A stretch of DNA of 32,484 bases from Lactobacillaceae bacterium (GTDB lineage: Bacteria > Bacillota > Bacilli > Lactobacillales > Lactobacillaceae). Below the pieces are notes generated by a model. The model had not been told where the DNA came from and made no database searches. It worked only from the letters and a program-made list of their open reading frames with translations. Location of the stretch: contig JAITPD010000015.1 in the NCBI GenBank assembly GCA_031289615.1, positions 1 to 32,484 on the forward strand, in the 5' to 3' direction. How positions within the stretch are numbered: position 1 is the first letter of the stretch; the number at the start of each line of letters is the position of its first letter. Below are positions 3,161-27,792 of the stretch, piece after piece. The position numbers and the translations under genes are program-made.

Positions 3161-3340
3161 GCTGAGGTTGATCAGCTTCGCTAAAGATTCTTTACGTTTC
3201 GGATGGCCCTGCACGAGTCACGGCGAATGGCAAAATAATTTGCCAATTTCACGGAGCTAAAGCACTCGTGAAAAGGTTCGCCTTGATTCGGCAAGGGCTG
3301 GTCATCCGACGACAGAATCGCTTCGCTGATCAATCTCAGC
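3161..3340 (+). repeat. Family A long palindromic element, copy 1
   Basis: The outer arms GCTGAGGTTGATCAGC (3161-3176) and its near-exact inverse at 3325-3340 bracket a 180-bp element. Inside are a second arm pair (AGATTC / GAATC, CGGATG / CATCCG), a GGCAAAATAATTTGCC hairpin near 3229-3244 and a TTCACG / CGTGAA hairpin near 3248-3272. Homologous elements lie at 5440, 7518, 18104 and 27596. It sits in the gap upstream of the PAP2 gene. Confidence 0.85.
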
Positions 3341-3355
3341 ATAATATCTCACTAA

Positions 3356-3411
3356 AATTCCTAGACATTTTATTCAAAGCCACCACGCAATTGAAAAAAT
3401 GACTAGGAATT
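3356..3411 (+). repeat. Collapsed family F hairpin
   Basis: AATTCCTAGACATTTTATTC (3356-3375) pairs with an inverse ending at 3411 (AATGACTAGGAATT). The loop and right arm contain CCACCACGCAATTGAAAAAATGAC, written here only as CCACCACGCA plus TTGAAAAAATG, which match the right arm of the full family F element at 32059. It looks like a family F copy that lost its centre. It directly follows a family A element, as at 5744. Confidence 0.65.
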
Positions 3412-3660
3412 CTATAACTAACACAACTCCGTAAGAATATAGCAAATTTTTGAATTAAATAAGAAGAATCAAAGAAATATTACTAGAAATGACGTGTTAT
3501 GAAAGTTTGAAATACAAAGTCACAGATAGTCTTGAGCATAGGTTCACAAAAAATGCACAAATAAAAACATTTTTAAATAAATAATTATTGTATGCTTTAT
3601 TTAATATGAATTGCGCGAATTGTAATTCAATAAAATGTAGAGACAAAGGACATAGATGAC
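3412..3660. other. AT-rich upstream region of the small membrane protein gene
   Basis: No gene or strong terminator is seen. The stretch is very A+T rich and probably contains the promoter of the gene at 3661. A TAATAT box lies near 3602, but no convincing -35 could be matched. A short imperfect inverted repeat (GAATTGCGCG...TAATTC, 3608-3628) sits between this and the ribosome binding site AAAGGA (3645-3650) and could be an operator. Confidence 0.35.
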
Positions 3661-4167
3661 ATGGCAGAAGAAAAGGTAGTTAAAGTAAAGAAGATTAAAA
3701 AGTGGCATTGGGTTGTCGCAATCTTGGTGATTTTAGGATTAGTGGCCGGTTGGTTCCTAACGCATCCAAATGTTGTGAGTCAAGTTGCAAACGCTTTGAA
3801 CTTGGATCCTAATGCGGGTGACAAGATTGATAAGGATGCAAACAAGAATGCCAAGAAGGGAATCCAAATTCCTGGGTATCCTGAGATTACATTGACAGCT
3901 GGAAGTCCAAAGATGAACGTTGCTTTGACAAATCCAAAAGATAATCCATGTTATTTTGAATTTACGTTGAAGATCAAAGACACTGGTGAAGTTTTGTACA
4001 AGAGTGCGGACGTGGCACCTTCAAAGACAATTAATGAAGAGACTTTGAAGCGCAGTCTAGATGCAGGAACGTATGATGCTGTGATTGAGATTCGAACAAA
4101 GGCACTTAAGTCACCGCACGCTGCAATGAATGGGGCTAACGTGGCAACACGCCTGGTAGTTAAGTAA
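3661..4167 (+). CDS. Small single-pass membrane protein with exported beta domain
   Basis: The protein has 168 residues: a lysine-rich cytoplasmic start (residues 1-16), one membrane segment (about 17-34, VVAILVILGLVAGWFLT), a Lys/Asp/Asn-rich linker (48-66), then an exported domain with the pattern IPGYPEITLTAGSP, LTNPKDNPCYFEF, DTGEVLYKS and DAGTYDAVIEIR. I recall similar short tail-exposed proteins in many Firmicutes with no assigned function. The basic side precedes the span, so the C-terminus should be outside. It ends 39 bp before the third DUF6273-like paralog and appears to be in the same transcript, which suggests the two products act together, perhaps as a membrane anchor or assembly partner for a protein that lacks its own anchor. 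That link is inference. The start uses AAAGGA 10 bases upstream. Confidence 0.8.
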   Translation: MAEEKVVKVKKIKKWHWVVAILVILGLVAGWFLTHPNVVSQVANALNLDPNAGDKIDKDANKNAKKGIQIPGYPEITLTAGSPKMNVALTNPKDNPCYFEFTLKIKDTGEVLYKSADVAPSKTINEETLKRSLDAGTYDAVIEIRTKALKSPHAAMNGANVATRLVVK

Positions 4168-4206
4168 AATAAATAGACATTTTAAACCAATTGTGAGGAA
4201 AAAATT

Positions 4207-5415
4207 ATGCGCATTCGAGATAAACAATTAAATAGCAAGAGTTTGTCAGGATTGTTTGCAATTGGTGCATCGGTCGCGTTCTTGAGCGCACCAGTGCAAG
4301 CGGATACGTATTCAAATGGATCTTGGACGAGTGGAGATGGCGAGACTGAGATTACAACAACTATTGATCCATCATACACAGTGACAATTCCAAGCACGAT
4401 CACATTGCCACAGTCTGACTCGTATACAAATGAAACTGCTAATGTATACGTTTCGGCTGGATCGACAATCGCTAAAAATCAGATCATTAACGTGAATTTG
4501 TCGGCGGACCAAACGTTTGCGGTCGAACATACTGGAGCCGCAAGTGATCAAGTGCCCTTCAAGGTTAAGATTAATGCTGGGACAGGGATTGCAAGTACGC
4601 CAGTCGCAGTGAATGTTTTAAGTGTGAATGCTGATGACGCCCATGATTTAACTTCTTCAGCGAATTTAAACGTTGGATTTGATACTGGGTCAGCTCCTGA
4701 TTTCAAATATGCTGGAAACTATTATGGTAGCATTAATTTTGATGTTAGCACGAGTGCACTTGTGACAGCTGAAGAACCAGTTGTCGGTGGTACGGTGAAT
4801 CTGAATTCAAACACGATGAATGTCGTCAAGAAGGTTAGCAATGCTGGCAAGAATTATTATCTTGTGATCGAAGCAGGGCAAGGGACTCAGGCTCAATATA
4901 ACAATGGAGCAAATTATGGTTCTTATAATAGCTCTGCGTTAAAGACTGCGATTGATGCGCAGGCTACCAGTGTTGTCACGAGTAACACGGGGACGCAAAA
5001 TGTGGTTGCGCCAGAAGGTTATAAGATTCATTCAACGGTTTTGCGTGGTTCGGACAATGGAAGCGCTGGAAGTATTCTGAATTGGGCGAGTGCTGATTTC
5101 CAAAATGCATTTTGTTCAATTCCATTGGATAGTGGAGTAACTGCTGGAGCTTCTGATACGGTCGCCTATGCATTTGTGCCAAGTTTTGCAGATTTGCAAG
5201 GTGCGTCGGCTGGAACAAGCTTCACATTTAGTGGCCAGATTAATGTCTTGGCGTCTGATGTTACGAATGTGGCGAAAACTGATGTTAATACGTGGCTACG
5301 TTCGCCGGGGCACAGTAATGTTGGAGCAGCTGCCTTGACATCTACTGGAACGCTCACAGGGATCCACGTTAGCTATAATCAGGCTGCGCGAATGGCATTT
5401 TGGATTTCAAAATAG
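4207..5415 (+). CDS. Secreted protein with beta-rich module and DUF6273-like C-terminus
   Basis: This is the third paralog, 402 residues, starting at an ATG 7 bases after GAGGA. Its signal peptide (residues 1-33) ends near VQADTYS. The mature start, TYSNGSWTSGDGETEITTT, parallels the protein at 934. Module motifs SYTVTIPSTITLPQ and KYAGNYYGSINFDVS occupy residues about 35-180. The DUF6273-like half starts near VVGGTVNLN and closes with WLRSPG and MAFWISK at the very end. No sorting motif, wall-binding repeat or second span is present. It lies 39 bp downstream of a small membrane protein, probably in one operon, and is followed by a family A repeat. Compared with the other two copies, the segment between RSPG and the terminal FWI is the most divergent part. 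Confidence 0.85.
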   Translation: MRIRDKQLNSKSLSGLFAIGASVAFLSAPVQADTYSNGSWTSGDGETEITTTIDPSYTVTIPSTITLPQSDSYTNETANVYVSAGSTIAKNQIINVNLSADQTFAVEHTGAASDQVPFKVKINAGTGIASTPVAVNVLSVNADDAHDLTSSANLNVGFDTGSAPDFKYAGNYYGSINFDVSTSALVTAEEPVVGGTVNLNSNTMNVVKKVSNAGKNYYLVIEAGQGTQAQYNNGANYGSYNSSALKTAIDAQATSVVTSNTGTQNVVAPEGYKIHSTVLRGSDNGSAGSILNWASADFQNAFCSIPLDSGVTAGASDTVAYAFVPSFADLQGASAGTSFTFSGQINVLASDVTNVAKTDVNTWLRSPGHSNVGAAALTSTGTLTGIHVSYNQAARMAFWISK

Positions 5416-5439
5416 AATTAACACGTTGTGCTGGTTATA

Positions 5440-5738
5440 TAATATTGCTGTTTGGTTGATCAGCTTCGCTAAAGATTCTTTACGTTCGGATGGCCCTGCA
5501 CGAGTCTATGCGTTTTGTTAGCGATTTATCGCTTACCAAAACACGATCCGCAGTACTTTGTTGGTCAGCTGTGTCATACAGCTGAGCGACTTAGTAACGG
5601 AGGTGGTTGCAAATGGCAAAATAATTTGCCAATTTCACGGCGCTACAGCCCGCGTGAAAAGTTTCGCCTAGATTCGGCAAGGGCTGGTCATCCGACGACA
5701 GAATCGCTACGCTGATCAACCAAAGCGCAACATTTCAA
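5440..5738 (+). repeat. Family A long palindromic element, copy 2, with internal insertion
   Basis: The outer arms TTTGGTTGATCAGC (5451-5464) and GCTGATCAACCAAA (5711-5724) are exact inverses, and the match extends outward to about 5440 and 5738. The core matches the other copies (CGGATGGCCCTGCACGA, GGCAAAATAATTTGCC, TTCGCCTAGATTCGGCAAGG). This copy carries about 100 extra bases between 5504 and 5611, which contain two more hairpins: GTTTTG.TTAGCGA / TCGCTTA.CAAAAC (5512-5542) and CAGCTGTGTCATACAGCTG (5567-5585). Confidence 0.85.
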
Positions 5739-5743
5739 CTAAC

Positions 5744-5795
5744 ATCTTGGTCATTTTATTGAAAAACCATTGCACCAATAAAAAATGGGCAAGAT
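5744..5795 (+). repeat. Collapsed family F hairpin
   Basis: ATCTTGGTCATTTTATT (5744-5760) pairs with AATAAAAAATGGGCAAGAT (5777-5795). The left arm is the same as the left arm of the full family F element at 18317, but the centre is missing. It follows a family A copy, as at 3356 and 18317. Confidence 0.65.
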
Positions 5796-5825
5796 ATTGC
5801 ACAACTTGCATTAAACGTTATAGCA

Positions 5826-5856
5826 AGCGTTAAACACGACAGTTTAGCGCTTTTTT
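5826..5856 (+). terminator. Intrinsic terminator
   Basis: AGCGTTAAAC (5826-5835) pairs with GTTTAGCGCT (5842-5851), followed by six T. It separates the upstream surface-protein and repeat region from the LRR gene, so the LRR gene should have its own promoter between 5857 and 5983. Confidence 0.8.
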
Positions 5857-5887
5857 CTGTTGCTGTTAAAAAAATCACAAAAAATTC

Positions 5888-5898
5888 GGGGGGGGGGG
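5888..5898 (+). repeat. Homopolymeric tract of 11 G
   Basis: Eleven consecutive G at 5888-5898, about 85 bp before the LRR gene start codon, between an upstream terminator and the ribosome binding site. It is therefore in the promoter or 5' untranslated region. Tracts of this length are prone to slippage. Confidence 0.9.
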
Positions 5899-5950
5899 TA
5901 CAGAATAACACCTAGTTTAACCCTATTAGAAGCGTATGCTGAGCTTGTAC

Positions 5951-5965
5951 ATAAAAACGCTTTCA
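5951..5965 (+). promoter_or_regulatory. Possible catabolite-responsive element (cre)
   Basis: ATAAAAACGCTTTCA fits the relaxed Gram-positive cre consensus WTGNAANCGNWNNCW with one mismatch (A for G at position 3). It lies just before the AAGGAG ribosome binding site of the LRR gene, where CcpA binding could block transcription. It is a pattern match only. Confidence 0.3.
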
Positions 5966-5982
5966 CAAATAAGGAGAATAAT

Positions 5983-7371
5983 ATGAATGGATTTAAAATA
6001 ACTAAAAAATTGGCGCAAACTTTGGCACTGTTGGCTGTGGTGGCTGGTGGAGCAGTGGCACCAATCGCAGGGGTGGTGATTCCAGGCTTGCAACAAAGCG
6101 TGGCGCATGCATCAGTATTATATCAGGGTAATTTCAATACAAGTCATTGGACAATTGAGGACAACGGAACCTTAACAATTGAAACGGGTGAATTAGGTGA
6201 TATGTCCGCACAATCTGCTGGAGAATCACCTTGGTATAGCTATAGAGCACAAATTACAAAGGTTGTGATTCAAAAAAATGTTAAGGCGCATACACAGTCA
6301 GCAAAATTATTTAATGATTTATTTCGGGTAACACAGTTTGATGGATTAGAAAATTTAGATACCTCTGGTGTCGAAAATATGAATTTTATGTTCGCGAATT
6401 ATCGTGGATCACAACTAGATGTTAGTCATTTCAATACCGCAAAGGTAAAAAGTATGCGGTGTATGTTTCAAGAGTGTAAGGAGTTAACAACATTAAATCT
6501 CAGTAGTTTTGAAACAAATCAAGCGGAAGATATGATTTCTATGTTTGGCGGTTGTGAAAAACTCACAAAACTAAACGTTAGTAATTTCAAAGTAGACGCA
6601 GTGAAAAATATGGATCAAATGTTCAATGGTTGTATTAATTTACAAACATTAGATCTCACATCTTGGGAAACAAAATCTATAACTTCTGCTGATTCCATGT
6701 TTTTTAATTGTTCAAGCCTTTGGAAATTAACATTAGGAGTAAATTTCACTGCAACGGGAAATACTGCTATTACTACTCCAGTTGAAGGTAAAGATTTCAA
6801 TCAAATTTACAAGGTGAGGTCAACCTCGTGGCAGGAAGTTGGAACCACCGGAACACCAAGCAATCCCAATGGTACTGAGGTTACACCTGATGATCTACTG
6901 GAAAATCACGCAACAGCAGATAAAACCGAAACATATGTCTGGCAAGGAACGCTTGGCGCTACAACCGTCGACTACACCGTTGATCCAAGCTACACCATCA
7001 CGATTCCAGCGACAATCACAATTTCACAGTCTGACAAGTATGGATCAGGCAATGTCGTGTTGAAGGCTTATCCAAAGTTGCCATATGAAGAAAGTCTCAT
7101 CAAAATCACGGCAACTTCAACTTTAACTAATTGGCATCTGAAGACAGGAGGCGATACGACAGGTGTTGCTTATCTATTCGGAACACAACCAAATGGTAGT
7201 CAGTTGAGCAGTGGTGGATGGCTGACATTCACGGCGGATGGAACTAAATCCGACGACACGGTTCAACCAGTTTACGCATCTTTGCCAGCCGGCTCGCAAT
7301 TCAAGTATGCTGGAAGCTATACGGATACGGTGAATTACACAATTGAAACTACGGATCCAAATGCACGTTAG
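5983..7371 (+). CDS. BspA-type leucine-rich-repeat secreted protein
   Basis: The chosen start is the ATG at 5983, 6 bases after AAGGAG; it puts a proper signal peptide (residues 1-43, ending VAHAS) at the N-terminus of a 462-residue protein. An upstream TTG at 5860 in the same frame would read through the G tract and is unlikely. Residues about 110-250 contain roughly five BspA/DUF285 repeats of the form MFxxCxxLxxLxLSxFxT. Residues about 320-460 repeat the beta-rich module of the DUF6273-like proteins: WQGTLGATTVDYTVD, SYTITIPATITI and FKYAGSYTDTVNYTIE. In those proteins the module is N-terminal; here it is C-terminal. No LPXTG or membrane anchor is visible. BspA-like repeats often bind host or surface proteins; the ligand here is unknown. 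Two terminators follow. Confidence 0.85.
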   Translation: MNGFKITKKLAQTLALLAVVAGGAVAPIAGVVIPGLQQSVAHASVLYQGNFNTSHWTIEDNGTLTIETGELGDMSAQSAGESPWYSYRAQITKVVIQKNVKAHTQSAKLFNDLFRVTQFDGLENLDTSGVENMNFMFANYRGSQLDVSHFNTAKVKSMRCMFQECKELTTLNLSSFETNQAEDMISMFGGCEKLTKLNVSNFKVDAVKNMDQMFNGCINLQTLDLTSWETKSITSADSMFFNCSSLWKLTLGVNFTATGNTAITTPVEGKDFNQIYKVRSTSWQEVGTTGTPSNPNGTEVTPDDLLENHATADKTETYVWQGTLGATTVDYTVDPSYTITIPATITISQSDKYGSGNVVLKAYPKLPYEESLIKITATSTLTNWHLKTGGDTTGVAYLFGTQPNGSQLSSGGWLTFTADGTKSDDTVQPVYASLPAGSQFKYAGSYTDTVNYTIETTDPNAR

Positions 7372-7384
7372 TAAATGTTTTGAG

Positions 7385-7414
7385 ACGATTCTTCTGAAAG
7401 GGAGGATCGTTTTT
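7385..7414 (+). terminator. Intrinsic terminator after LRR gene
   Basis: ACGATTCTTC (7385-7394) pairs with GGGAGGATCGT (to 7410) with some G-T pairs, followed by a T run. It starts 14 bp after the LRR stop codon. Confidence 0.7.
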
Positions 7415-7421
7415 CATCATG

Positions 7422-7468
7422 AAAGCACTGTATTACTAATTTTCGGTTAGTTAAATGAGTGCTTTTTT
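7422..7468 (+). terminator. Second intrinsic terminator
   Basis: AAAGCACT (7422-7429) pairs with AGTGCTTT, with an inner CTAA / TTAG stem, followed by six T. It is the second terminator in tandem and isolates the next operon. Confidence 0.75.
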
Positions 7469-7475
7469 GAATTTC

Positions 7476-7484
7476 TGCTATAAT
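7476..7484 (+). promoter_or_regulatory. Extended -10 promoter of the ypmR operon
   Basis: TGCTATAAT is a consensus extended -10 (TGn plus TATAAT), placed directly after two terminators and with no gene before ypmR at 7766. No good -35 is visible. Transcription starting near 7491 would place the whole family A element at 7518-7717 in the 5' untranslated region. Confidence 0.6.
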
Positions 7485-7517
7485 TGTTAAGATAACTCGG
7501 AGTTCTGGTTGGTTATT

Positions 7518-7717
7518 TGAAATATTGAGCTTTGCTTGAACAGCGAAGCGATTCCGTCGTCGGATGATAGTCCCTGCCGAATCTAGGCGAACCTTTTCAC
7601 GCGTGCTTTAGCGCCGTGAAAATGGCAAATTATTTTGCCATTCGACATGAATCGTGCAGGGCCATCCGAACGTAAAGAATCTTTAGCGGAGCTGATCAAG
7701 CAAAGCTCAATATTTCA
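7518..7717 (-). repeat. Family A long palindromic element, copy 3 (inverted)
   Basis: TGAAATATTGAGCTTTGCTT (7518-7537) is an exact inverse of the sequence ending at 7717, giving at least 20 bp of perfect terminal arms that continue with GATCAGC-like sequence. The interior is the reverse complement of copies 1, 2 and 4, including the hairpin ATGGCAAATTATTTTGCCAT (7622-7641). It lies between the extended -10 at 7476 and ypmR. Confidence 0.85.
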
Positions 7718-7765
7718 CAACTAGCACCACACGTCAGACAAACTTCTTATTAGAAAGAGAGCACA

Positions 7766-8644
7766 ATGCGAAAAATAGTTAAATTATTGTTGGTTGTCTT
7801 GCTGTTTTCAGTCTTCACGCCAACCGTTGAAGCGAAAACAACCAAGCTCACCGTCAAAAAGAGCATTAATTTAGTGACCATTGGCGATTCTTTGACAGAA
7901 GGAATTGGTGATACAAAAAAGCAAGGTGGCTATGAAAAGCGCACCGCTAAATTACTGGAGCAGACTTATCCAGTGACAGTTAAGACGGCCAATTACGGAA
8001 AAGCAGGCGACCGTTCTGACCAAATTTTAGCACGCATCAAGAAAAACCCAAGCGCGCTAAAAGTGATTGCTAAGGCCGATGTGATTGTGATGACTGCCGG
8101 TGGAAACGATTTGCAACAAGAATTATTTAAGCTTGTCACAACAAAGGATGCAGCCGATATTTTGCCAAAGGTTGATAAGCAAACTACCAACTATCACAAA
8201 AGTCTCAATCAACTTGTGAGTTATGTTCGGACTAAAAATAAAACTGCGCCAATTTTTTTGTTTGGCAATTATAATCCGCTCTATGTTTATTTGGCGAATC
8301 GCCCTGATCTCAATAACGCGGTTCATCTCTACAACGGCGTTAATTGGGCGGTCACCAAGGAACACAAGAAAATGTACTATGTCACAATTTTCAAAACGTT
8401 GACGTATGGACAATATCAGACTAAGACAGCGCAAAAGGCATTGGCCAAAGAGTCTGCCGAGGCTGCAAAGGGTTCCACTAAAAATAAATTGGTTGAAGAA
8501 ACTTTGAACGGCCCCAATAATGAAAAAAATGAGTACATTACAACTGAGGATCATTACCATCCAAATGATTTAGGCTATGATAAAATGAGTCAAGCGTTAG
8601 TTGGTGTCATGATTAAAAACAAGAAAGAATGGTTATACAAGTAA
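7766..8644 (+). CDS. ypmR: Exported GDSL/SGNH-family esterase (YpmR-like)
   Basis: A 292-residue protein with a signal peptide or N-terminal anchor (residues 1-24, ending VEAKT). The SGNH hydrolase blocks are in order: GDSLTEG with the nucleophile Ser near residue 42, the Gly block NYGKAGDRS near 73-81, GGND near 111-114, and the catalytic DHYHPN near the C-terminus. This matches YpmR-type extracellular lipase/acylhydrolases; the natural substrate is unknown. RBS AGAAAGAGAG precedes the ATG. Its stop overlaps the start of the next gene (TAATG), and ypmR-ypmS-yozE is a familiar order in lactobacilli. It is the first gene of a six-gene operon reaching dprA. Confidence 0.88.
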   Translation: MRKIVKLLLVVLLFSVFTPTVEAKTTKLTVKKSINLVTIGDSLTEGIGDTKKQGGYEKRTAKLLEQTYPVTVKTANYGKAGDRSDQILARIKKNPSALKVIAKADVIVMTAGGNDLQQELFKLVTTKDAADILPKVDKQTTNYHKSLNQLVSYVRTKNKTAPIFLFGNYNPLYVYLANRPDLNNAVHLYNGVNWAVTKEHKKMYYVTIFKTLTYGQYQTKTAQKALAKESAEAAKGSTKNKLVEETLNGPNNEKNEYITTEDHYHPNDLGYDKMSQALVGVMIKNKKEWLYK

Positions 8645-9464: not shown

Positions 9465-9479
9465 AGGGAGAGCGGTGAC

Positions 9480-13959: not shown

Positions 13960-16900
13960 ATGGTTATGAATAAAAAGGTAAAAAAGAATAAATATTCAGC
14001 AATTATTTTGACTTCAATTTTGTTGGGTAATTTGGTGACACCGGTTGCAACTGCCTTAGCCGAAGTTAAAGTCGCTAATGAAACACCATCTACTGCAAAC
14101 ACGCAAACTACTCAAGATGGAATGAATCCATTTGACTCACTGAAAAAGGCTTTTGATACCGAAGTGAAAAAGATTACTACTAAATTAACAAGTAGTGATC
14201 AAACCAAAGCGAAGGAATACATCATTCAATTGGATGAGAAGCCTGCTGCTGCAACGACACCCACTTCTGACGGATCTGATTCATCCATTAAAAAGATTGA
14301 AGCAGCCGATAAAAAAGTTGAAGCTGATCAAGCGGACGAAAAGAAAGCTATCGAAAAGATTACAGATAATAAGGTTGAAAAGAACTTCACTTATTTGATT
14401 AATGGTTTTAAAATCAAGGCAACTCCATTGGAAATCTCTGAGATTAAAGAAAAGGTTGATGGAATTAGCAAGGTCTCTGAAGTCCAAAAATATGAGACAG
14501 AAGATGTTAACGCTAATGATTTGGCTCAAATCCAACAAGTTTGGGAATCAAAGACGCATCCAACCAAGGGTGAAGGAATGCTGATCTCAGTCATCGATAC
14601 TGGAATGGATCCTGATCATCAAGACATGGTGCTTGGTGATTCTGGGAAGAAAAATGCCAAGTTGTCTGAAGAAGCGGTGAATAACATTGTTGAGTCAGGA
14701 ATTTTGCATGGTAAAGGAAAATATTATTCAGACAAGGTTCCTTATGGTTATAACTATGCCGATGGTGACGACAAAATATTAGATAACGGTCTTGGTGGAT
14801 ATCATGGTCATCACGTTACTGGAATCGTCGGTGCTAACGGAACAGTTGCAAACGGCGGACAACCAATTGATGGGATTACTCACGTTGATGGAGTTGCGCC
14901 TGAAGCTCAAATCATGATGATGAAGGCGTGTAATTATGCTGGTTCGTTGACCAGTGATGCAATTATCGAAGGAATTGAAGACTCAGTTAAATTGGGTGCT
15001 GATGTGATTAACATGTCAATTGGAAGCTCAACTGGTGTCTATACTGCTGATGATGCTGAAATCAATGCGGTTGAACAAGCAGCTGATGCAGGAGTTTTGT
15101 CAGTGGTTTCTGCTGGTAATTCAGGTAATTATTCTTCATTGGAAAATGCTAATACCAAGAATTTGGCTGACTTTGCAGACCAACGAACTTCTGGAACTCC
15201 AGCGGTTGCGCCAAGTGCGTTGTCAGTTGCTGCATCATATAACAGCAAGGTTCCATATACAAACATTCCACTTTTGAATTCAGATATTCCTGATTCACTA
15301 AAGATTCTGCCATTTTATGGAAATGAAAACTTCGCTAAATTCATCAAGAGTGATGATCATAGTGCAGACTTGGTTGTTGTGCCAAACCAAACTGATGATA
15401 ACAATGCCGATTTGCCTGGACTCGGCTATGAAGCAGATTATGCCGGAATCGATGTCAAGGACAAGTGGGCAGTTGTTCTTCGTGGAGATCTAACATTTTC
15501 TGATAAGCAAGCGACGGCTGTTGCACATGGAGCCAAAGGGTTAATTGTCATTAATAACGTTGAAGCTAGTGCGCCAAATGGAATTGGCTTTGAAGAAGGA
15601 ACTGATTTCGCTCCAACTTTCTCAACGACGCTTCAAGCTGGAAAAGATTTGCTGAAGTATATTGGCAAGGGTAAGACCATTAATTTTGGGACTGATGTTA
15701 CAACTGCTTTAGCTTCAGATCCAACAGCAGCCAAGCCAACTTCATTTACATCATGGGGAACTGGTTCTGACTTTTTGATGAAGCCTGAAATCATGGCAAC
15801 TGGTGGAAACGTTTGGTCAACTATGAACGATAATGGCTATGGATTGATGTCTGGAACGTCAATGTCATCACCATTTGTTGCTGGTAGTGAAGCGCTGGTT
15901 CTTTCACAAATCAAGAAGCAAAAGAATGCGCCAACTGGTCACAAGTTGATTGAAGCGGCCAAGTTGACTGTGCAAAATACGGCAGTCCCTGCTTATGATG
16001 ATGAAAATAAGACATTTTACTCACCTCGTCGTCAAGGAACTGGAAACATTCAAGTTGACGATGCTTTGAAGAACAAGACAGTGTTGGCTAATAAGGCTGA
16101 TAATACTGCAGGAGTTTCATTGAAGGAAATCAAGAACAACCAACTTTCATTCACGGTGACGTTGACTAATTACGGATCAAAGCAAGAACGTTACCAATTG
16201 GATGATAAGTATTTGACGGTTGCTCAACAAATCACTACTTCAACGGGTGACTTTGCAGATGCACCAATTGCCAAGACAAAGTTGAATCCTTCAAAGAAGT
16301 GGTTCACGCTTAAGGCTGGAAAGTCTACAACTGTTACCTTTACTGCTAATTTGAACAAGGCAAACAAGCAAACTTGGGTTGAAGGATATGTTGGCTTTAT
16401 CAATGCAAAGACGCATAAGGCGCTTTCAATCCCATACTTTGGCTACAATGGTGATTACAATCAACAAGCAGCAGTTGACAAGTTTGCTGGGCAAGCTGGT
16501 AGCAAGATGAATGTCGGACATATTTCTGATTTGTCTGGTAACTTAATTGGGTCATCGGCTTATAAAGATGAAAAGGGCGTTTTGCGAATTACTGGTAATG
16601 ATGCGAACGATTACTGGTTCTCACCAATTGGCGGAGAACTCGAGAATTCAACCGGAAACTTCAAGGCATTCGTGCCATCACTACCTTTGACACGTGATGT
16701 GGTCAAGATGAGCGTAAAAATTTATAATTCTGCTAATCAGTTGGTGAAGCAAATGCAAAACACTGCACCAGAAGGACATGCATATTTGGACAATTCATCT
16801 CATACTCCTGAGCTTGGTTTAGCTGCAAATATTGACTTAGCTTGGACTGGAACTGATGAAACTGGGGCAAACGTACCTGATGGAGACTACAAGTATGAAA

Positions 16901-18030
16901 TCTCTACCACACCTGCATTTACGGGTGCCAAGGCGCAAAAGACAACTCTTAAGGCGCGAATCGACCGGGTTGCTCCTGAAGTTTCAGAATTGAAGTTTGC
17001 TAAAAATGATGATGGGTCTTACCACATTAGCTTTGATATGAAGGATCAAGGTTCAGGAATTCCTGCAAAGTATCCACTTTTGTTTGGAATCAATGCCGGG
17101 AATGGCACAGAGCCAATTATCAAGACTGTTGGTGATTTGACTGGTGGTCAAGCAATTAAGACGCAAAAGCATATCGACTTTGCTGTAAGTGCTGAAGAAC
17201 TTGCAAATTGGCAAGTGTTTGATGAAGATAACTGTGTTTATATGTTCACTCGTGATCAAGCTGGAAATGATTTGAATGAATTGATGCGGACCAATGCTGA
17301 TGGTAGTGTTACAAAGCTTGATGCAGATGATATTCGTTCCGTTTCACACAAATATGAGTTAACAGCTGATGATGTGGTGGTGACTGATTTTAGAGCTAAA
17401 GACGGGAACAGTTGTTTTGGATCACCAATTCCAGTATTAAACTGGAATGAAGAAACTGATCGGGCAGATTCACATCCTGATTTGAAGACTTCAGAAGACT
17501 TGATTTTGCACAAAGATCCAACGACGCGTGCCACTAAGATTATGATTTATGACCGTGAAACAAAAGTGGCATATCAAAATACAACCTTTACTGCATCTGA
17601 TGGTTATTACCGAGTGAAGGATGCAGGTGGCAAGGAAGATGATTGGGCGGTTAATTTAAACTTAGCAACTAGCTTAATTGGTGATAAGCCCTTTGGATTG
17701 CATTCGCTACGGACGTTGAATCCAAAGTATGAAGACTATGTTGATGTTGATCAAACTGTTGAAATTAAGTACAATGGTGTGACCACTCAAGCTTTCATTC
17801 CAGCAGGAAACCAACATATCTCTTCTTGGGTCATACTATACGGCTCTGCTTTCACTCAGGCTGGCAGTGAAGATCCATTCCAGAATTTGCCAACGCATAG
17901 CATGGTTGATGAAATTATTTCTGGAAATGCTGGAAATCAAGTTTGGATTCAAATTAATGGAACTTGGGCACGTTTGCAAAAAGATGGCGTAGGGGTTTAT
18001 CAGATCACCTATATACCTCGTAAGGAATAG
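13960..18030 (+). CDS. Subtilisin-like cell-envelope serine protease (lactocepin/C5a peptidase type)
   Basis: 1356 residues. Signal peptide 1-34 (AIILTSILLGNLVTPVATALA), then a prodomain to about residue 190 with an inhibitor I9-like part (EYIIQLDEKP; FTYLINGFKIKATPLE). The S8 catalytic domain has Asp213 (VIDTGMD), His282 (YHGHHVTG), the oxyanion Asn block SAGNSG near 386-391, and Ser634 (SGTSMSSPFVAG). A PA domain lies between His and Ser, at about 455-580 (AVVLRGDLTFSDKQATAVAHGAKGLIVINN). After 680 come Fn3/C5a-like beta domains (LSFTVTLTNYG) and a long beta-rich tail. There is no LPXTG, SLH or LysM at the end (last residues ITYIPRKE), unlike classical PrtP. It probably degrades milk or host proteins for peptide supply. 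Own transcript with terminator at 18047. Confidence 0.92.
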   Translation: MVMNKKVKKNKYSAIILTSILLGNLVTPVATALAEVKVANETPSTANTQTTQDGMNPFDSLKKAFDTEVKKITTKLTSSDQTKAKEYIIQLDEKPAAATTPTSDGSDSSIKKIEAADKKVEADQADEKKAIEKITDNKVEKNFTYLINGFKIKATPLEISEIKEKVDGISKVSEVQKYETEDVNANDLAQIQQVWESKTHPTKGEGMLISVIDTGMDPDHQDMVLGDSGKKNAKLSEEAVNNIVESGILHGKGKYYSDKVPYGYNYADGDDKILDNGLGGYHGHHVTGIVGANGTVANGGQPIDGITHVDGVAPEAQIMMMKACNYAGSLTSDAIIEGIEDSVKLGADVINMSIGSSTGVYTADDAEINAVEQAADAGVLSVVSAGNSGNYSSLENANTKNLADFADQRTSGTPAVAPSALSVAASYNSKVPYTNIPLLNSDIPDSLKILPFYGNENFAKFIKSDDHSADLVVVPNQTDDNNADLPGLGYEADYAGIDVKDKWAVVLRGDLTFSDKQATAVAHGAKGLIVINNVEASAPNGIGFEEGTDFAPTFSTTLQAGKDLLKYIGKGKTINFGTDVTTALASDPTAAKPTSFTSWGTGSDFLMKPEIMATGGNVWSTMNDNGYGLMSGTSMSSPFVAGSEALVLSQIKKQKNAPTGHKLIEAAKLTVQNTAVPAYDDENKTFYSPRRQGTGNIQVDDALKNKTVLANKADNTAGVSLKEIKNNQLSFTVTLTNYGSKQERYQLDDKYLTVAQQITTSTGDFADAPIAKTKLNPSKKWFTLKAGKSTTVTFTANLNKANKQTWVEGYVGFINAKTHKALSIPYFGYNGDYNQQAAVDKFAGQAGSKMNVGHISDLSGNLIGSSAYKDEKGVLRITGNDANDYWFSPIGGELENSTGNFKAFVPSLPLTRDVVKMSVKIYNSANQLVKQMQNTAPEGHAYLDNSSHTPELGLAANIDLAWTGTDETGANVPDGDYKYEISTTPAFTGAKAQKTTLKARIDRVAPEVSELKFAKNDDGSYHISFDMKDQGSGIPAKYPLLFGINAGNGTEPIIKTVGDLTGGQAIKTQKHIDFAVSAEELANWQVFDEDNCVYMFTRDQAGNDLNELMRTNADGSVTKLDADDIRSVSHKYELTADDVVVTDFRAKDGNSCFGSPIPVLNWNEETDRADSHPDLKTSEDLILHKDPTTRATKIMIYDRETKVAYQNTTFTASDGYYRVKDAGGKEDDWAVNLNLATSLIGDKPFGLHSLRTLNPKYEDYVDVDQTVEIKYNGVTTQAFIPAGNQHISSWVILYGSAFTQAGSEDPFQNLPTHSMVDEIISGNAGNQVWIQINGTWARLQKDGVGVYQITYIPRKE

Positions 18031-18046: not shown

Positions 18047-18073
18047 AAAAGGCGGTTAAGAACCGTCTTTTTT
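18047..18073 (+). terminator. Intrinsic terminator after the protease
   Basis: GGCGGTT (18051-18057) pairs with AACCGTC (18061-18067) with one G-T, flanked by AAAA upstream and six T downstream. Confidence 0.75.
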
Positions 18074-18081
18074 GCTATAAT
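18073..18081 (+). promoter_or_regulatory. Extended -10 promoter upstream of the ruvAB operon
   Basis: TGCTATAAT, the same nine bases as at 7476-7484, begins inside the end of the protease terminator. The first gene downstream is ruvA at 18706, so a transcript from here would carry about 600 bases of leader made almost entirely of repeat elements A and F. Confidence 0.5.
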
Positions 18082-18103
18082 TAGATAAGTTAATGCGAAT
18101 TAC

Positions 18104-18314
18104 TAGTTATTTAAGATTGTGCTAGGTCCGATCAGCTCCGCTAGAGATTCTTTACGTTTCGGATTGCCCTGCACGATTCATGTCGAATGGCAAAATAATT
18201 TGCCAATTTCACGGCACTAAAGCGCGCGTGAAAAGGTTCGCCTAGATTCGGCAAGGGCTGGTCATCCGACGACAGAATCGCTTCGCTGACCAACTAACAC
18301 AATATTTCAGTTAA
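18104..18314 (+). repeat. Family A long palindromic element, copy 4
   Basis: The outer arms AGATTGTGCTAGGTCCGATC (18114-18133) and the inverse ending in CAACTAACACAATATTTCAG (18291-18310) pair imperfectly. The core matches copy 1: AGATTCTTTACGTTTCGGAT, GGCAAAATAATTTGCC, TTCACGG / CGTGAA, TTCGCCTAGATTCGGCAAGG and CATCCGACGACAGAATCG. Confidence 0.85.
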
Positions 18315-18316
18315 GG

Positions 18317-18623
18317 CATCTTGGTCATTTTATTGAAAGCGTGATGGTTTGAGATAATGATATTAGGTGATTATCGTGTTTACAAAGGCTGAGCTTCGGT
18401 TATAAGCCAATTTCAGGTTAACTACGGCGCTACGCTTTGGTAGCAACCTGAAATAGTCTTATCCCGACAGCTCAGAGCGCCTTTGTGCACACTCCTTAAA
18501 GCGAGGTAGCGGCACCAATTCGACTAAATTTCGGTTCACCGAAATTAAAAGCCGAATGGGACCGTGTCGCCACTTACTATCTTTATCGGAAATCAAACAC
18601 GCAAGTGAGAAATGGCCAAGTTG
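18317..18623 (+). repeat. Family F nested palindromic element with internal hairpin insertion
   Basis: The left arm (18318-18370; ATCTTGGTCATTTTATT, GCGTGATGGTTTGAG, TATTAGGTG) pairs over about 50 bases with the right arm ending at 18622. The centre (18501-18580) is another stem: GCGGCACCAATTCGACT and AGCCGAATGGGACCGTGTCGCC with an inner ATTTCGGTTCACCGAAAT hairpin. Bases 18376-18492 are a separate inserted palindrome absent from the copy at 32059: TACAAAGG / CCTTTGTG outside, then GAGC / GCTC, then ATTTCAGGTT / AACCTGAAAT inside. Confidence 0.8.
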
Positions 18624-18705
18624 CGAAGCAGAACATAGTACAATTAATACCTTGGTTAGTAATTCGCATAAGGTTAAATTTATTTATAAAGTGGGGTTTT
18701 GAAAC

Positions 18706-22620: not shown

Positions 22621-22642
22621 TTATTAAAGGGGTTTTATAACC

Positions 22643-22975: not shown

Positions 22976-22987
22976 TCAGTGCTAAAT

Positions 22988-23019: not shown

Positions 23020-23059
23020 GCTATTCAAGTTGAAATGATAAACTGACAAGGAGTAACAA

Positions 23060-24181
23060 ATGGCCGATTTGTTAGAAATTGCCTTACAGTTAAATACGGA
23101 TCGCTCAATCATTCACGTGGATATGGATGCTTTTTATGCGCAAATTGAAATGCGTGATCATCCAGAATATCGGGATCAAGCCATTATTTTAGCTAGTGAT
23201 CCTCGCAAAAATGGTGGACGAGGAGTGGTCGCTACGGCAAACTATGCGGCTAGAAAGTTAGGTGTGCATTCAGCAATGAGTTCGGCAGAGGCTGTTAAAC
23301 TAGCACCGAACGCCTTATTTGTGCGGCCTAATTTTGATTCATATCGAGCAGTTTCGGCTCAAGTTCATGAAATTTTTCATCGTTACACAGATATGGTCGA
23401 ACCAATTGCCTTTGATGAAGCTTATCTGGATGTTACAAAGAGTAAAATTCCTTTTGAATCAACAGTGGCATTGGCACATCACTTGCAGCAAACGATTTTT
23501 GATGAGTTAACGTTGACCTCGTCAGTTGGCGTTTCGTTCAACAAATTTCTGGCAAAGCTTTCATCCGAACACAATAAACCTGCGGGATTCACAGTTGTTG
23601 CACCAGAGGAAATCCGGACGTTTTTAGATCCGTTACCCATTAAAGATATTCGCGGAATTGGTTCCAAAACCGTTCCCAAGATGAATGAGCTTGGAATCTA
23701 CACCGGCAAAGACCTGTTTGAAATGGATCAGTCTGCACTCTTGTCGCATTTTGGAAAGATGGGTTATGAATTTTATCGTAGGATTCGCGGTGTGGATGAT
23801 CGAGAAGTCGAATGGCAACGCGAACGTAAATCAATTGGGAATGAACGAACCTATGGGCCATTTCTCACACAAGAAGAAACTGTGTTTGAAAACTTGCATT
23901 ATTTGGCTGAATTGTTAGAACATTCATTGACTAAGCGCCAGATGCATGGCAAGACCATCGTTTTAAAAACGCGTGATGAGGATTTCGTCACTGAAACGCG
24001 GCGCCGGACATTGCCTGATTTTATTCCAAACGATGCAGATACTTATTATGAAATTGCCGAAGAACTCTGGGAAGAGTTAGGTGGATTCCAAAAGGCAGTT
24101 CGTTTGTTGGGATTGACTATGACGACTTTGGCGCCGATGACGTTTGATAATATGCTTTTAGACTTGTATGGGAACGATTAG
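23060..24181 (+). CDS. dinB: DNA polymerase IV
   Basis: 373 residues, ATG 6 bases after AAGGAG. Y-family polymerase motifs: IIHVDMDAFYAQIE with the first metal Asp, GRGVVATANYAARKLGV, AFDEAYLDVT with the second acidic pair, SVGVSFNKFLAKLSSEHNKP, and the helix-hairpin-helix IKDIRGIGSKTVPKM. The little-finger domain follows (SIGNERTYGPFL). Error-prone translesion polymerase. The beta-clamp motif at the C-terminus is degenerate (NMLLDLYGND). No SOS box was recognised upstream. Confidence 0.95.
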   Translation: MADLLEIALQLNTDRSIIHVDMDAFYAQIEMRDHPEYRDQAIILASDPRKNGGRGVVATANYAARKLGVHSAMSSAEAVKLAPNALFVRPNFDSYRAVSAQVHEIFHRYTDMVEPIAFDEAYLDVTKSKIPFESTVALAHHLQQTIFDELTLTSSVGVSFNKFLAKLSSEHNKPAGFTVVAPEEIRTFLDPLPIKDIRGIGSKTVPKMNELGIYTGKDLFEMDQSALLSHFGKMGYEFYRRIRGVDDREVEWQRERKSIGNERTYGPFLTQEETVFENLHYLAELLEHSLTKRQMHGKTIVLKTRDEDFVTETRRRTLPDFIPNDADTYYEIAEELWEELGGFQKAVRLLGLTMTTLAPMTFDNMLLDLYGND

Positions 24182-24194
24182 AAGTGGATTAATG

Positions 24195-24203
24195 TGCTAT
24201 AAT
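24195..24203 (+). promoter_or_regulatory. Extended -10 promoter of nrnA
   Basis: TGCTATAAT, the third copy of the same extended -10 in the window, about 100 bases before the nrnA start and just after dinB. No clear -35. Confidence 0.6.
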
Positions 24204-24305
24204 CATAAATAATAAGTAAGTGTTGCAGAGCGTTTGGTGTGTAGAAAAACGTTAAGTGAATTCAGTGGATTACTAAGATTAAATTTAATAGAATTGAGAT
24301 AGACT

Positions 24306-25253
24306 ATGACAGCGCAAACCAGCATTTTGGCGCAAATTAAAAAATTTGATACGATTATCATTCATCGCCACCAGCGACCAGACCCAGATGCCTTTGGTTC
24401 GCAATTTGGCTTGGCTGAATTGATCAAGACATCATTTCCAAATAAGCACGTGTATGTAGTTGGTAAAATGAAACCGAGTGCTGAGTGGATGGGCGAGATG
24501 GACGAAATCGCTGATGAAATTTATCATAATGCGCTAGTAATTGTTACTGATACCGCTAATTCACCGCGTGTGGATGACCAACGTTGGAACCTAGGCGAAA
24601 CCGTCATTAAGATTGACCATCATCCAAATGAGGAGCCCTATGGCGATTATAATTGGGTCGTTGAAGAGGCTTCATCTAGTTCTGCTTTGATTTTTAGCTT
24701 TTATCAGGAATTTAAAGATGAACTCAAGCTTTCTGATGCCGGCGCTTCGTTCTTGTACAACGGGATTGTTGGCGACACTGGACGGTTCTTATTTTCAACG
24801 AATTCAAAAACTATGGCAGTTGTTTCCGAATTAATGAAATTTGACTTTGATTGGTTCAAAATTAATCAGATGATGGACACGATTTCATTGCAGGCCGCGC
24901 GGATGTCGGGCTATGTCTTTGAAAATATGCAGATGAATGAGTTAGGCTTGAATTACATTGTGTTAAAGCGCGAGGTAATTGATAGCTTTGAGCTTGGTGA
25001 TTTTGGAACGGCCTTTGTGGTGCCACTGCTTGGAAAAATCAATTCCGTGAAAGCATGGATTGTTTTTGAAGAGCAAGATGAGGGATTTTACCGTGTGCGT
25101 TTGCGTTCACGAAATACCATCATTAACGGTGTCGCTGCCCGGCATGGTGGTGGTGGACATCAGTTTGCTTCTGGTGCGCTTGCCAATGACGAACAAGAGA
25201 TCGAAACCATCGTGGCTGAAGTCAACGATGTATTAAAGAAAGAGCAAGGTTAA
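24306..25253 (+). CDS. nrnA: DHH-family oligoribonuclease / pAp phosphatase NrnA
   Basis: 315 residues with the DHH motifs HRHQRPDPDAFGS (about 20-32), VTDTANSPR, KIDHHPN and the DHHA1 block ARHGGGGHQFASGA near the C-terminus. The family degrades short RNA oligonucleotides and dephosphorylates 3'-phosphoadenosine 5'-phosphate. RBS is weak (GAGAT). The helicase gene follows after 3 bp, and the pairing of two RNA-handling enzymes fits a joint role in RNA turnover. Confidence 0.92.
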   Translation: MTAQTSILAQIKKFDTIIIHRHQRPDPDAFGSQFGLAELIKTSFPNKHVYVVGKMKPSAEWMGEMDEIADEIYHNALVIVTDTANSPRVDDQRWNLGETVIKIDHHPNEEPYGDYNWVVEEASSSSALIFSFYQEFKDELKLSDAGASFLYNGIVGDTGRFLFSTNSKTMAVVSELMKFDFDWFKINQMMDTISLQAARMSGYVFENMQMNELGLNYIVLKREVIDSFELGDFGTAFVVPLLGKINSVKAWIVFEEQDEGFYRVRLRSRNTIINGVAARHGGGGHQFASGALANDEQEIETIVAEVNDVLKKEQG

Positions 25254-25256
25254 CAA

Positions 25257-26627
25257 ATGGCCAAATTTACGGACTACAACTTGCGACCAGAGATTTACCA
25301 AGCTTTGGAGCAAATTCATTTTGGAACGCCGACAAAAGTGCAAGAAAAGCTGATTCCAGTGATCTTACAGGGTCGTTCAGTGGTTGGACAATCACAGACT
25401 GGTTCCGGTAAGACCCACGCTTTTTTGATTCCAATTTTTGAAAAATTAAATATAAAAGACCAACACGTGCAAGTCATTATCACGACACCTTCACGTGAGT
25501 TAGCAGCGCAAATCAATATTGCGGCTAAACAAATCGCTAGTAATTTTGCTGAAGAAGAACAGCCAAAGATCGGTTACTATGTTGGCGGAACTGACAAAGC
25601 GCGCCAAGCCACGCAACTAAAGGCTAGCCAGCCTCAAATTGTAATTGGGACACCTGGGCGAGTTTTGGATTTGAGCAAAGCTGGTGCGTTGGATATTCAT
25701 ACAGCGCAAACGTTGGTGATTGACGAAGCTGACATGACGCTAGACGGTGGATTCTTGCCAGATGTCGACGCAATTGCTGGAGCACTGCCTTCTGATTTGC
25801 AAATGATGGTCTTTTCAGCTACGATTCCACAAAAGTTGCAACCATTTTTGAAGAAATATCTGGATAATCCTGTCGTGGAAGAAATTCCGAGCGAAACCGT
25901 GATTGCCGATACGATTACAAATTTGCTTGTCGGAACAAAGGGTAAGACCAAAGACGAGGTTGTCTATAACTTGTTGACCATGGGAAATCCATACATGGCG
26001 CTGGTTTTCACTAATACCAAAGACCGGGCCAAAGAGTTAGCCAAGTTTTTGCGGAATCAAGGCTTAAAGGTTGCCGAAATTCACGGAGATATTCAACCAC
26101 GTGAACGAAAGCGAACAATGGCAGCAGTGCAGCATCTGGATTATCAATATGTTGTTGCGACCGACCTTGCCGCACGTGGAATTGATATTCCTGGAGTTGA
26201 TTTGATTATCAACGACGGAATTCCAAATGAATTAGAATTCTTTATTCATCGAGTTGGTCGAACGGGCCGTAATAATCAATCTGGTACGGCGATTACGATT
26301 TACAATCCGGACGAAGAAGATCGGGTGGCTGCAGTTGAAAAGATGGGAATCACGTTTATTCCTAAAAACTATAGTCACGGCGAATTAAAAGATGGAATTG
26401 ATCGACGCCGACGAGTTCAACGTCAACGTTCAACAGTAAAACTTGACCCAACCATGATTGGGATGGTTAAGAAAAAGAAGAAAACTGTTAAGCCTGGGTA
26501 CAAGCGCCAAATTAAAAAGGCAATTGCAAAGGACGCTCGGTTTAAGAAGCGTGTCGCAGATCGTGAAGAATTGCGCGCGAACCGAAAAGCTAAAAAGCAA
26601 GCATCTGATAAGGCCCGTGGAAAATAG
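25257..26627 (+). CDS. cshB: DEAD-box RNA helicase, CshB-like
   Basis: 456 residues. Q motif FGTPTKVQEKLIPVILQG, Walker A SQTGSGKTHAF, TPGRVLDL, DEAD box VIDEADMTL near residue 156, FSATIP, and the helicase C-terminal HRVGRTGR. The last 60 residues are strongly basic (KKKKKTVKPGYKRQIKKA), probably for RNA binding. The N-terminal LRPEIYQALEQIHFGTPT and length suggest the CshB group involved in cold adaptation and ribosome assembly. Starts 3 bp after nrnA. Confidence 0.92.
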   Translation: MAKFTDYNLRPEIYQALEQIHFGTPTKVQEKLIPVILQGRSVVGQSQTGSGKTHAFLIPIFEKLNIKDQHVQVIITTPSRELAAQINIAAKQIASNFAEEEQPKIGYYVGGTDKARQATQLKASQPQIVIGTPGRVLDLSKAGALDIHTAQTLVIDEADMTLDGGFLPDVDAIAGALPSDLQMMVFSATIPQKLQPFLKKYLDNPVVEEIPSETVIADTITNLLVGTKGKTKDEVVYNLLTMGNPYMALVFTNTKDRAKELAKFLRNQGLKVAEIHGDIQPRERKRTMAAVQHLDYQYVVATDLAARGIDIPGVDLIINDGIPNELEFFIHRVGRTGRNNQSGTAITIYNPDEEDRVAAVEKMGITFIPKNYSHGELKDGIDRRRRVQRQRSTVKLDPTMIGMVKKKKKTVKPGYKRQIKKAIAKDARFKKRVADREELRANRKAKKQASDKARGK

Positions 26628-26655
26628 GGTAATTTTATATTAGGAGGAAATGTTT

Positions 26656-27579
26656 GTGACGTTTACACGAATTAAGAACTATACAATTATGTCGGCAGGC
26701 TTCGTTTTGGGGGCACTCCTAATTGCTATGGCGATGAATTTCTTTTTTATTCCAAATAAGATTTTCTCTGCAGGATTTAACGGAATTGCGCAACTACTGA
26801 ATTTATTCTTTGGCGTTTTTAACATTCACGTTGAAGTTGGATCAATGATTATGCTCTTCAATATTCCAATCGCAATCTTTGGATGGTTCTGGGCTGGTCG
26901 TAAATTTGTTGTTGTTAGTTTTTTGAATAATTTCTTAGCGGCTGCCTTACAAATTGTTTTGCCTAAGGTGAGCATTGTCAATCACGAACCAATTCTAGCA
27001 GCCTTGTTTGGTGGCGTGCTGGTCGGAGTTTCGATGGGAATTACCTTTAAACTTGGCTTTTCAACTGGTGGAATGGACGTTGTGGCGGCCATTGCGCAAA
27101 AGAAAACTGGTAAATCAATTGGCTTTGTAAGTATGTTTATCAATACATTCATCGTGATTATCTCAGGATTCTTCATCGGTTGGCAAAATGCGATGTACAC
27201 CATTATTGGAATCTATGCGACATCGTTGGCGGTGGATAGCATTTACACGAAGCATAAGAAGCTGACGGCGTTCATTGTGACCAAGAAGCCTGATGAGGTG
27301 ATTGAAAACTTGCAGGCCAATGTGGTGCGCGGGATTACGGTCATGGATTCTGCGGGTGCTTATACGAAGCAACCATCAAAAACTTTGATGATGGTGCTGT
27401 CGCGTTATGAGCTAAATGATATGCAGCGGTTGGCAAAAGAAGCGGACCCAGATGCTTTCATTAATGTTTTGAACACGATTGATGTTTCAAATAACTTTGT
27501 GAATGAAGACTTACAACACCAGATTCGTTTGGAAAAGTTGGCGGCGCAAAGTCATTTGTCAGACCATTTAACTAATTAA
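26656..27579 (+). CDS. YitT-family membrane protein with DUF2179 domain
   Basis: The ribosome binding site AGGAGG at 26642-26647 is only 2 bases from the ATG at 26650 but 8 bases from the GTG at 26656, so the GTG is the better start, giving 307 residues (TFTRIKNYTI...). Five to six membrane spans cover residues 10-195 with the YitT pattern FFIPNKIFSAGFNGIAQLL and GFSTGGMDVVAAI. The C-terminal soluble domain is DUF2179 (AFIVTKKPDEVIENL, GITVMDSAGAYT, DPDAFINVLNT). Function unknown; the family is common in Firmicutes. A family A repeat follows. Confidence 0.88.
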   Translation: MTFTRIKNYTIMSAGFVLGALLIAMAMNFFFIPNKIFSAGFNGIAQLLNLFFGVFNIHVEVGSMIMLFNIPIAIFGWFWAGRKFVVVSFLNNFLAAALQIVLPKVSIVNHEPILAALFGGVLVGVSMGITFKLGFSTGGMDVVAAIAQKKTGKSIGFVSMFINTFIVIISGFFIGWQNAMYTIIGIYATSLAVDSIYTKHKKLTAFIVTKKPDEVIENLQANVVRGITVMDSAGAYTKQPSKTLMMVLSRYELNDMQRLAKEADPDAFINVLNTIDVSNNFVNEDLQHQIRLEKLAAQSHLSDHLTN

Positions 27580-27595
27580 ATTATAGATTAGCTCA

Positions 27596-27792
27596 GGAAT
27601 ATTGAAATTGTTTGTTCAGCGTAGCGATTCTGTCATCGGATGATAGTCCCTGCCGAATCTAGGCGAACTTTTTCACGCGCGCTTCAGTGCCGTGAAAATT
27701 GCAAATTATTTTGCAATTCGACATGAATCGTGCAAGGCAATCCGAATGTAAAGAATCTTTAGCGTAGCTGATTAAACAAAGTACAATATTCC
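27596..27792 (-). repeat. Family A long palindromic element, copy 5 (inverted)
   Basis: GGAATATTG (27596-27604) pairs with CAATATTCC (27784-27792), extended by imperfect arms through TCAGC / GCTGA. It matches copy 3 in orientation and content. Its internal hairpin is ATTGCAAATTATTTTGCAAT instead of ATGGCAAATTATTTTGCCAT; both sides of the stem changed together. Confidence 0.85.

Follow-up and report, generated by a model that had tools for sequence, protein, structure and literature searches.

The 32,484-nucleotide contig JAITPD010000015.1 of a Lactobacillaceae bacterium, which in its full length is termed the window here, contains several long palindromic elements whose arms differ from copy to copy while remaining inverses within each copy. 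This raises the question whether the matched changes reflect a folded form that is kept by selection, as RNA or as a DNA cruciform, or whether they can arise when the DNA of a repeat family is copied. The elements belong to a family of about 180 copies of a mobile DNA element that folds strongly and is probably non-autonomous. On balance, and with modest confidence, we regard it as an old, high-copy composite family resembling miniature inverted-repeat transposable elements (MITEs), the interior of which is homogenised between copies and the arms of which are re-matched by template switching. This reading is based on target duplications at 13 of 45 elements, on ends that are worn where the cores are kept, and on the observation that cores beside worn ends are not significantly more worn themselves.

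The window is one entire contig (C22) of a draft assembly of 2.01 Mb that comprises 65 contigs and is 95.6% complete. The host was taken as a Weissella-like lactic-acid bacterium, as its RuvA protein matched three loci, at 60% identity in Weissella uvarum, 59% in W. minor and 54% in Pediococcus pentosaceus.

Copy number and composition of the family

A search of the genome with the anchor GCTAAAGATTCTTTACGTT of the first hairpin module, named A, yielded 172 matches with at most one mismatch and 183 with at most two, whereas the reversed pattern used as a control gave none at the latter threshold. The earlier note on this DNA had expected many copies per genome from those in the window, and these numbers bear out that expectation. 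In the stretches around the anchors 144 A copies were read, including 122 with a recognisable right boundary; 14 of the other 22 are cut off by the end of the stretch read. Among the 122 copies, 105 have the standard length, 15 are extended by extra hairpins of about 100 nt and two are short. The standard cores can be divided into 88 members of class I and 17 members of class II, which has the same architecture with different helix sequences. In the 15 long cores, that of copy 2 in the window included, the extra hairpins separate the two core halves.

The complete element is composed of an outer end, a base stem, the A core, a B module and an inverted outer end. The outer ends follow the consensus AACGCGTTGTGCTAGTTGTG, with the outer-end motif AAYGCGTTGTGCTAGTTGTG; the A core (CAGC..GCTG, about 155 nt) consists of a main stem and two inner hairpins, and the B module (CCTTGGTCATTTT..AAAATGACCAAGG) occurs in short and long forms. 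Modules A and B are found together, alone or deleted, and the forms with A alone, with B alone or with almost no interior (71 nt, locus L154) look like losses of one hairpin. A recent insertion of the A core into old empty palindromes was rejected as an explanation, since the core-less palindromes seen retain core fragments and therefore look like internal deletions. An origin of the arms as pre-existing terminators was not favoured, since many arms are recognisably related to one consensus. The tip hairpin of B (18526-18560 in copy 4) is hypervariable, with 62 mostly still foldable forms among 84 copies and loops that include the types TTCG, TTTA and GAAA, and the sequence adjoining it is nearly invariant.

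Transposition signature and genomic setting

Both outer ends, representing terminal inverted repeats, were recognised by means of a weight matrix in 45 elements, some of the ends scoring weakly. Identical flanks of 4 bp, indicative of target duplications, were present at 13 of these elements compared with 1.14 expected from mismatched pairs, and identical flanks of 6 bp at three compared with 0.02; a first pass had given 11 of 30 elements compared with 1.31 expected. Accordingly, a signature of transposition, which the earlier note had named as an observation that would speak against a kept fold, was detected in part of the family.

The outer-end pattern gave 97 matches in the genome at up to three mismatches and 16 for the control. 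Among 110 ends examined, seven lead into neither A nor B, and no transposon was noticed there. At one of the seven (L059, contig C2, position 4121 to the contig end) the outer end is followed by unrelated sequence that may have been inserted into the element. Among the listed matches, one pair of adjacent ends faces each other at a distance of 1-3 kb; this pair, on contig C24, was rejected as an autonomous transposon because it encloses host genes and each end is part of its own small element.

With respect to genes, the copies are mostly intergenic, 12 of 155 overlapping a call of a simple open reading frame (ORF) caller. The 135 copies with genes on both sides comprise 52 oriented with and 59 oriented against co-directional genes, 16 located between divergent and eight between convergent genes, a distribution that resembles the intergenic background.

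Conserved interiors and worn ends

The ends diverge from their consensus by 20-22% per site. In contrast, paired sites of the class I A core diverge by 3.4% on average and unpaired sites by 7.6%, with a median of 1.1% for both. The left end scored above the 95th percentile of random sequence in 76 of the 144 copies and above its median in 122, so that, judged from their sequence, many left ends are worn remnants. The loss of the left end is not accompanied by a significant decay of the core: class I cores carry 1.26 rare changes in the 46 copies in which this end is gone and 0.76 in the 21 copies with a good end (p 0.22), and the rank correlation between left-end quality and class I core wear is -0.08 (p 0.47). 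Across all classes the left end is gone in 58 copies, 40 of which retain B to the right. Finding copies by an anchor within the core could favour intact cores; of 93 ends that were found independently of the core, 56 lead to an essentially complete core, 22 to a partial core, a group that includes long forms, and 15 to none. The 56 essentially complete cores, class II included, show a median identity of 94% and a lowest identity of 78%.

Several measures point to exchange of sequence between the copies. The core distance between copies is unrelated to their arm distance, and linkage between sites of the A core drops to 0.02 beyond 20 nt, with about 0.01 expected by chance. All four combinations were observed for 174 of 190 pairs of core sites, 51 of 72 fully scored copies show distinct haplotypes, and eight of the 88 class I copies fit the pattern for a class II-like right segment. 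The pairwise homoplasy index (PHI) test yielded p 0.001 in B, and 0.051 when common sites were used, and the r2 version of the test of linkage by distance yielded p 0.059 and 0.003 in A and values below 0.001 in B.

Covariation of cores and arms

Covariation of the core was analyzed in 39 copies, namely 22 class I copies chosen at random and all 17 class II copies. Changes on both sides were seen at 11 of 37 pairs compared with 5.1 after shuffling, which ignores the relatedness of the copies, and the covariation score was 0.163 compared with 0.083 for shuffled and 0.013-0.059 for slid alignments; part of this signal is the contrast between the two classes. The arms outside the core were tested in 71 of the 122 copies, the other 51, in which no more than 32 nt separate B from the core, being left out. 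Excess pairing reached a z value of 7.7 at 1-6 nt from the core, 4.6 at 7-12 nt, 2.3 at 13-18 nt and 0.5 at 19-24 nt, and the next windows gave -2.8 and -0.1. The first ten arm positions of all 122 copies pair at 6.20 on average, compared with 5.49 after shuffling (maximum 5.80 of 500 shuffles). The excess is real yet modest, as the arms of many copies are poorly paired. Matched non-consensus positions numbered 76 in 66 alignable base stems compared with 43.9 in shuffled pairs (maximum 64 of 1000), and where both arms are distant from the consensus (88 copies), 7.45 edits separate them, compared with 8.61 after shuffling. No covariation was detected at the transposon ends of 34 elements, in which 30 matched non-consensus positions faced 34.1 in the shuffled set, and the B arms showed a weak trend (z 1.8 and 1.9), some copies being wrongly anchored.

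Since the excess pairing fades outward and is missing at the ends, covariation is a property of the hairpin and of the base directly adjoining it. The arm-by-arm covariation that had been described for the family consequently holds inside A and over the first 18 nt or so outside it, and does not extend to the transposon ends; the more general view of a high-copy palindromic family with genuine covariation is sustained by the anchor counts and by the core and near-arm tests. Matched changes lie next to each other in 12 cases compared with 5.9 expected (p 0.0075), and the copies L054 and L120, as read from their sequences, seem to bear matched insertions in both arms. Such clusters and paired insertions are what template switching would give. 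Template switching during replication has been described as a source of such matched changes in hairpins, with no need for the fold itself to be selected (PMC8794818).

A kept RNA strand predicts that departures to G.U exceed departures to A.C in the helices. The count relied on covers the stacked helix pairs of four alignments (88 and 17 copies of A, 55 and 16 copies of B) and gave 125 G.U and 124 A.C cells, or 67 and 65 column events, besides 218 other mismatches; an RNA strand signature was therefore not recognised. Class I counts with other structures lean either way, with 36 G.U against 20 A.C in one and 44 against 86 in another. The 66 base stems lean to G.T (88 against 66 A.C), but shuffled pairs lean alike (106 against 78). 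Taken together with the two orientations between co-directional genes, these counts do not support the suggestion that the folded form is kept as RNA. A fold kept as DNA, the other form suggested, is possible, but matched changes can also come from template switching in the absence of selection. For the matched changes, errors in DNA copying together with exchange among the copies are at least as good an explanation as an RNA that is kept.

Explanations for the family

The favoured explanation can be framed as a sequence of events. A cut-and-paste (DDE-type) transposase acting in trans would have spread the elements via their ends, in a phase that would now be mostly over. Ectopic gene conversion between copies would then keep the inner modules alike, and template switching during replication at the hairpins would re-match the arms adjacent to the core and thereby produce the covariation; effects of the elements on the host would be incidental. 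The exchange step is suggested by the independence of core and arm similarity, the decay of linkage, the four site combinations, the PHI test in B and the class II-like segments, and the template-switching step by the fading covariation, the clustered matched changes and the missing G.U excess.

Several observations weigh against this explanation. An exact 4-bp duplication is lacking in 32 of the 45 elements, and no transposon or transposase was seen between these ends in the draft assembly, in which transposase families were not searched. In A, the PHI test does not reach significance (p 0.63 and 0.165), so that the reshuffling in this module could result from repeated mutation of free sites. 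Moreover, several core sites hold three or four letters beside invariant ones, and this variation, like the 62 tip forms of B, is not predicted by homogenisation alone.

Exchange combined with template switching was nevertheless ranked first and selection in place second. In the latter case, which we consider rather unlikely, the family would be a domesticated chromosomal element whose A and B cores are selected as DNA recognised by a protein, either double-stranded or as an extruded hairpin, for instance in chromosome folding or repair, and whose ends are no longer needed and decay. Cores that stay intact where the ends are gone, invariant core sites beside free ones, the PHI result in A, and the lack of both an orientation bias and an RNA strand signature all fit such a DNA site. 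On the other hand, the residual helix changes (G.U, A.C and other) look unfiltered, exchange is supported in B, the family was found in no relative searched, and some 180 separately selected sites represent a large claim.

A functional structured RNA expressed from many copies and selected for base pairing is quite improbable. It would account for the significant core covariation, the shared architecture of the two classes with their different helix sequences, the very stable folds, and the lean to G.U in one class I count and to G.T in the base stems. Against this stand the equality of G.U and A.C over stacked pairs, the reverse excess of A.C with another structure, the equal lean of shuffled base-stem pairs, the occurrence of both orientations relative to neighbouring genes and the lack of an Rfam match. 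Least probable of all is a REPIN-like element, in which the A core would have been moved as a single-stranded hairpin by an HUH transposase (RAYT/IS200-type). HUH elements are not known to make target duplications, and such duplications lie at the outer ends of part of the elements; furthermore, the 40 copies that lack the left end and retain B on the right look like worn whole elements and not like mobile cores. The idea would fit the conservation of the hairpin cores and not of the arms, and in REPINs, too, compensatory changes are common and a hairpin unit is conserved (PMC3116915).

Covariation between repeat copies is frequently taken to prove the existence of a functional RNA. The present family, with more than 100 copies in one genome, allowed the covariation to be measured, and it behaves like a product of DNA replication. 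Covariation that fades from the hairpin, lacks a strand signature and is absent at the ends calls for caution when RNA genes are deduced from repeats, and kept interiors together with lost ends provide a testable case for exchange between copies or domestication.

Comparison with known repeat elements

The BOX elements of Streptococcus pneumoniae, which belongs to the same order as the host, resemble the family in being composite, modular, strongly folded and present in many copies in a genome of about 2 Mb, with inverted ends and target duplications. Their modules are boxA, boxB and boxC, whereas those of the family are two nested hairpin blocks with worn ends and kept interiors; the two sequences were compared through Rfam only. 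The size of BOX elements is given as 67-637 bp (PMC3049150). Features that a review describes for prokaryotic MITEs (PMC10969869) are likewise shared, namely the lack of coding capacity, inverted ends and duplications, targets in AT-rich intergenic DNA, stable stem-loops and truncated copies. In the same review, the ends and direct repeats of QMITE1 are described as better conserved than the remainder; in the present family the interior is the better-conserved part, and no related insertion sequence was found. REPINs are dispersed extragenic hairpins as well, and compensatory changes between their copies were called common earlier (PMC3116915), but they are short REP doublets, whereas the family has a core of about 155 nt plus B and target duplications. 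Matched multi-base arm changes without separate compensatory mutations are also known from the evolution of hairpins by template switching; the cases consulted in two papers (PMC8794818, PMC8604942) concern RNA genes and yeast coding sequences and not a dispersed bacterial repeat. In summary of these likenesses, the family behaves in the manner of a modular, BOX-type MITE and is unusual in its reversed decay and its measurable hairpin-centred covariation.

None of the Rfam families attained its gathering score over the window; three matches were obtained within 18050-18700, of which the best had an E value of 0.79, and all were far below gathering. No such element was found in the literature on MITEs in Weissella, searched by title and abstract, or in that on palindromic MITE hairpins in Lactobacillus. 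In the searches made, there appears to be no closer named relative than the modular MITEs of the BOX kind.

Distribution of the family and the SbcCD nuclease

The search of related genomes with a covariance model, which the earlier note had proposed, revealed no A in the other genomes covered. In 27 other genomes of the genus nothing was found by BLAST with A, by BLAST with B plus the end, or by the covariance model of A with the best 108 candidates scored per genome, and the model detected none in 300 others sampled from the family Lactobacillaceae, some of them of the genus, with ten candidates scored per genome and stricter filters. Single one-mismatch matches of a 19-mer in six of 200 other genomes were taken as chance. 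Collections of plasmids, phages and viruses contained no match, nor did the GTDB genome collection for an exact 22-mer, although the host genome is possibly not part of it. The element thus seems confined to one species, as far as searched.

The hairpin nuclease SbcCD seems to have been lost in the host lineage. Of 28 genomes of the genus, 21 contain an SbcD above the cut-off, and the same 21 have an SbcC of full length (in two pieces in one of them). In the 95.6% complete draft of the host the search yielded no match for SbcC and just a weak SbcD-like one, so that a gap in the draft is a possible cause. Neither protein was found in six further genomes of this genus either. Loss of the nuclease may have permitted the family, but these six relatives do not carry it. 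As a sufficient cause the loss was set aside. Near-perfect palindromes are about equally rare in 100-kb samples of four of the species lacking and three species bearing sbcCD, but this measure discriminates poorly, having found only two in the host's own sample; local folding energy tracks the G+C content. Tentatively, the family may be described as self-homogenising dispersed palindromes, with about 180 folded cores that would have remained alike long after their ends rotted, either by means of hairpin-driven exchange and template switching, which would amount to concerted evolution of a dispersed bacterial repeat, or by selection as a domesticated site. The genome concerned is one that yielded no sbcCD.

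Copies and neighbouring features in the window

The following features of the family were assigned in the window.

3173-3328, plus strand: A core of copy 1 (156 nt), base arms at about 3161-3172 and about 3329-3340
3360-3407, plus strand: reduced B hairpin of copy 1 (CCTAG..CTAGG), read from the sequence
3413-3432, minus strand: worn outer end of copy 1, 6 of 20 positions mismatched
5420-5819, plus strand: complete element of copy 2, outer ends at 5420-5439 and 5800-5819 (minus strand)
5461-5714, plus strand: long A core of copy 2 with about 100 nt of extra hairpins
5744-5796, plus strand: reduced B of copy 2, inside the complete element
7541-7694, minus strand: A core of copy 3, without B; outer end at 7716-7735 (minus strand), opposite arm at about 7505-7540
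18091-18671, plus strand: copy 4, A and long B, outer arms at about 18091-18105 and about 18657-18671
18133-18288 and 18318-18623, plus strand: A core and B, respectively, of copy 4
27617-27770, minus strand: A core of copy 5, outer arms GGAATATTG / CAATATTCC
About 32042-32342, plus strand: copy 6, B at 32067-32246 and internally deleted A at about 32256-32320
32323-32342, minus strand: outer end of copy 6, the left end scoring weakly

Mapping of the cores placed the five A copies where they had been reported. The arms quoted for them are present and pair inside their own copies, the remnant at 32257 exists and is an A with an internal deletion, and the switch of the inner hairpin from TGGC..GCCA to TTGC..GCAA is real. 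The extents given for the copies are correct for the positions of A and too small for the unit, since A is only one module of a larger element: copies 1, 2 and 4 and the locus at 32 kb also bear module B and the common outer ends, with B being long in copy 4 and at 32067-32246 and reduced in copies 1 and 2. The predicted fold amounts to -94.9 kcal/mol for copy 1 (196 nt) and -210.5 kcal/mol for copy 4 (591 nt).

Copy 4 is directly preceded by a gene for a large protein of the subtilase family with PA and Fn3-like domains (13960-18030). A run of 11 G at 5888-5898, upstream of the start of a DUF285/BspA-repeat protein (about 5983), is a candidate for a slippage-prone and possibly phase-variable site. 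At 32380-32484 the contig terminates in the beginning of an ORF that resembles the start of an insertion sequence, which we take to be of the IS3 type.

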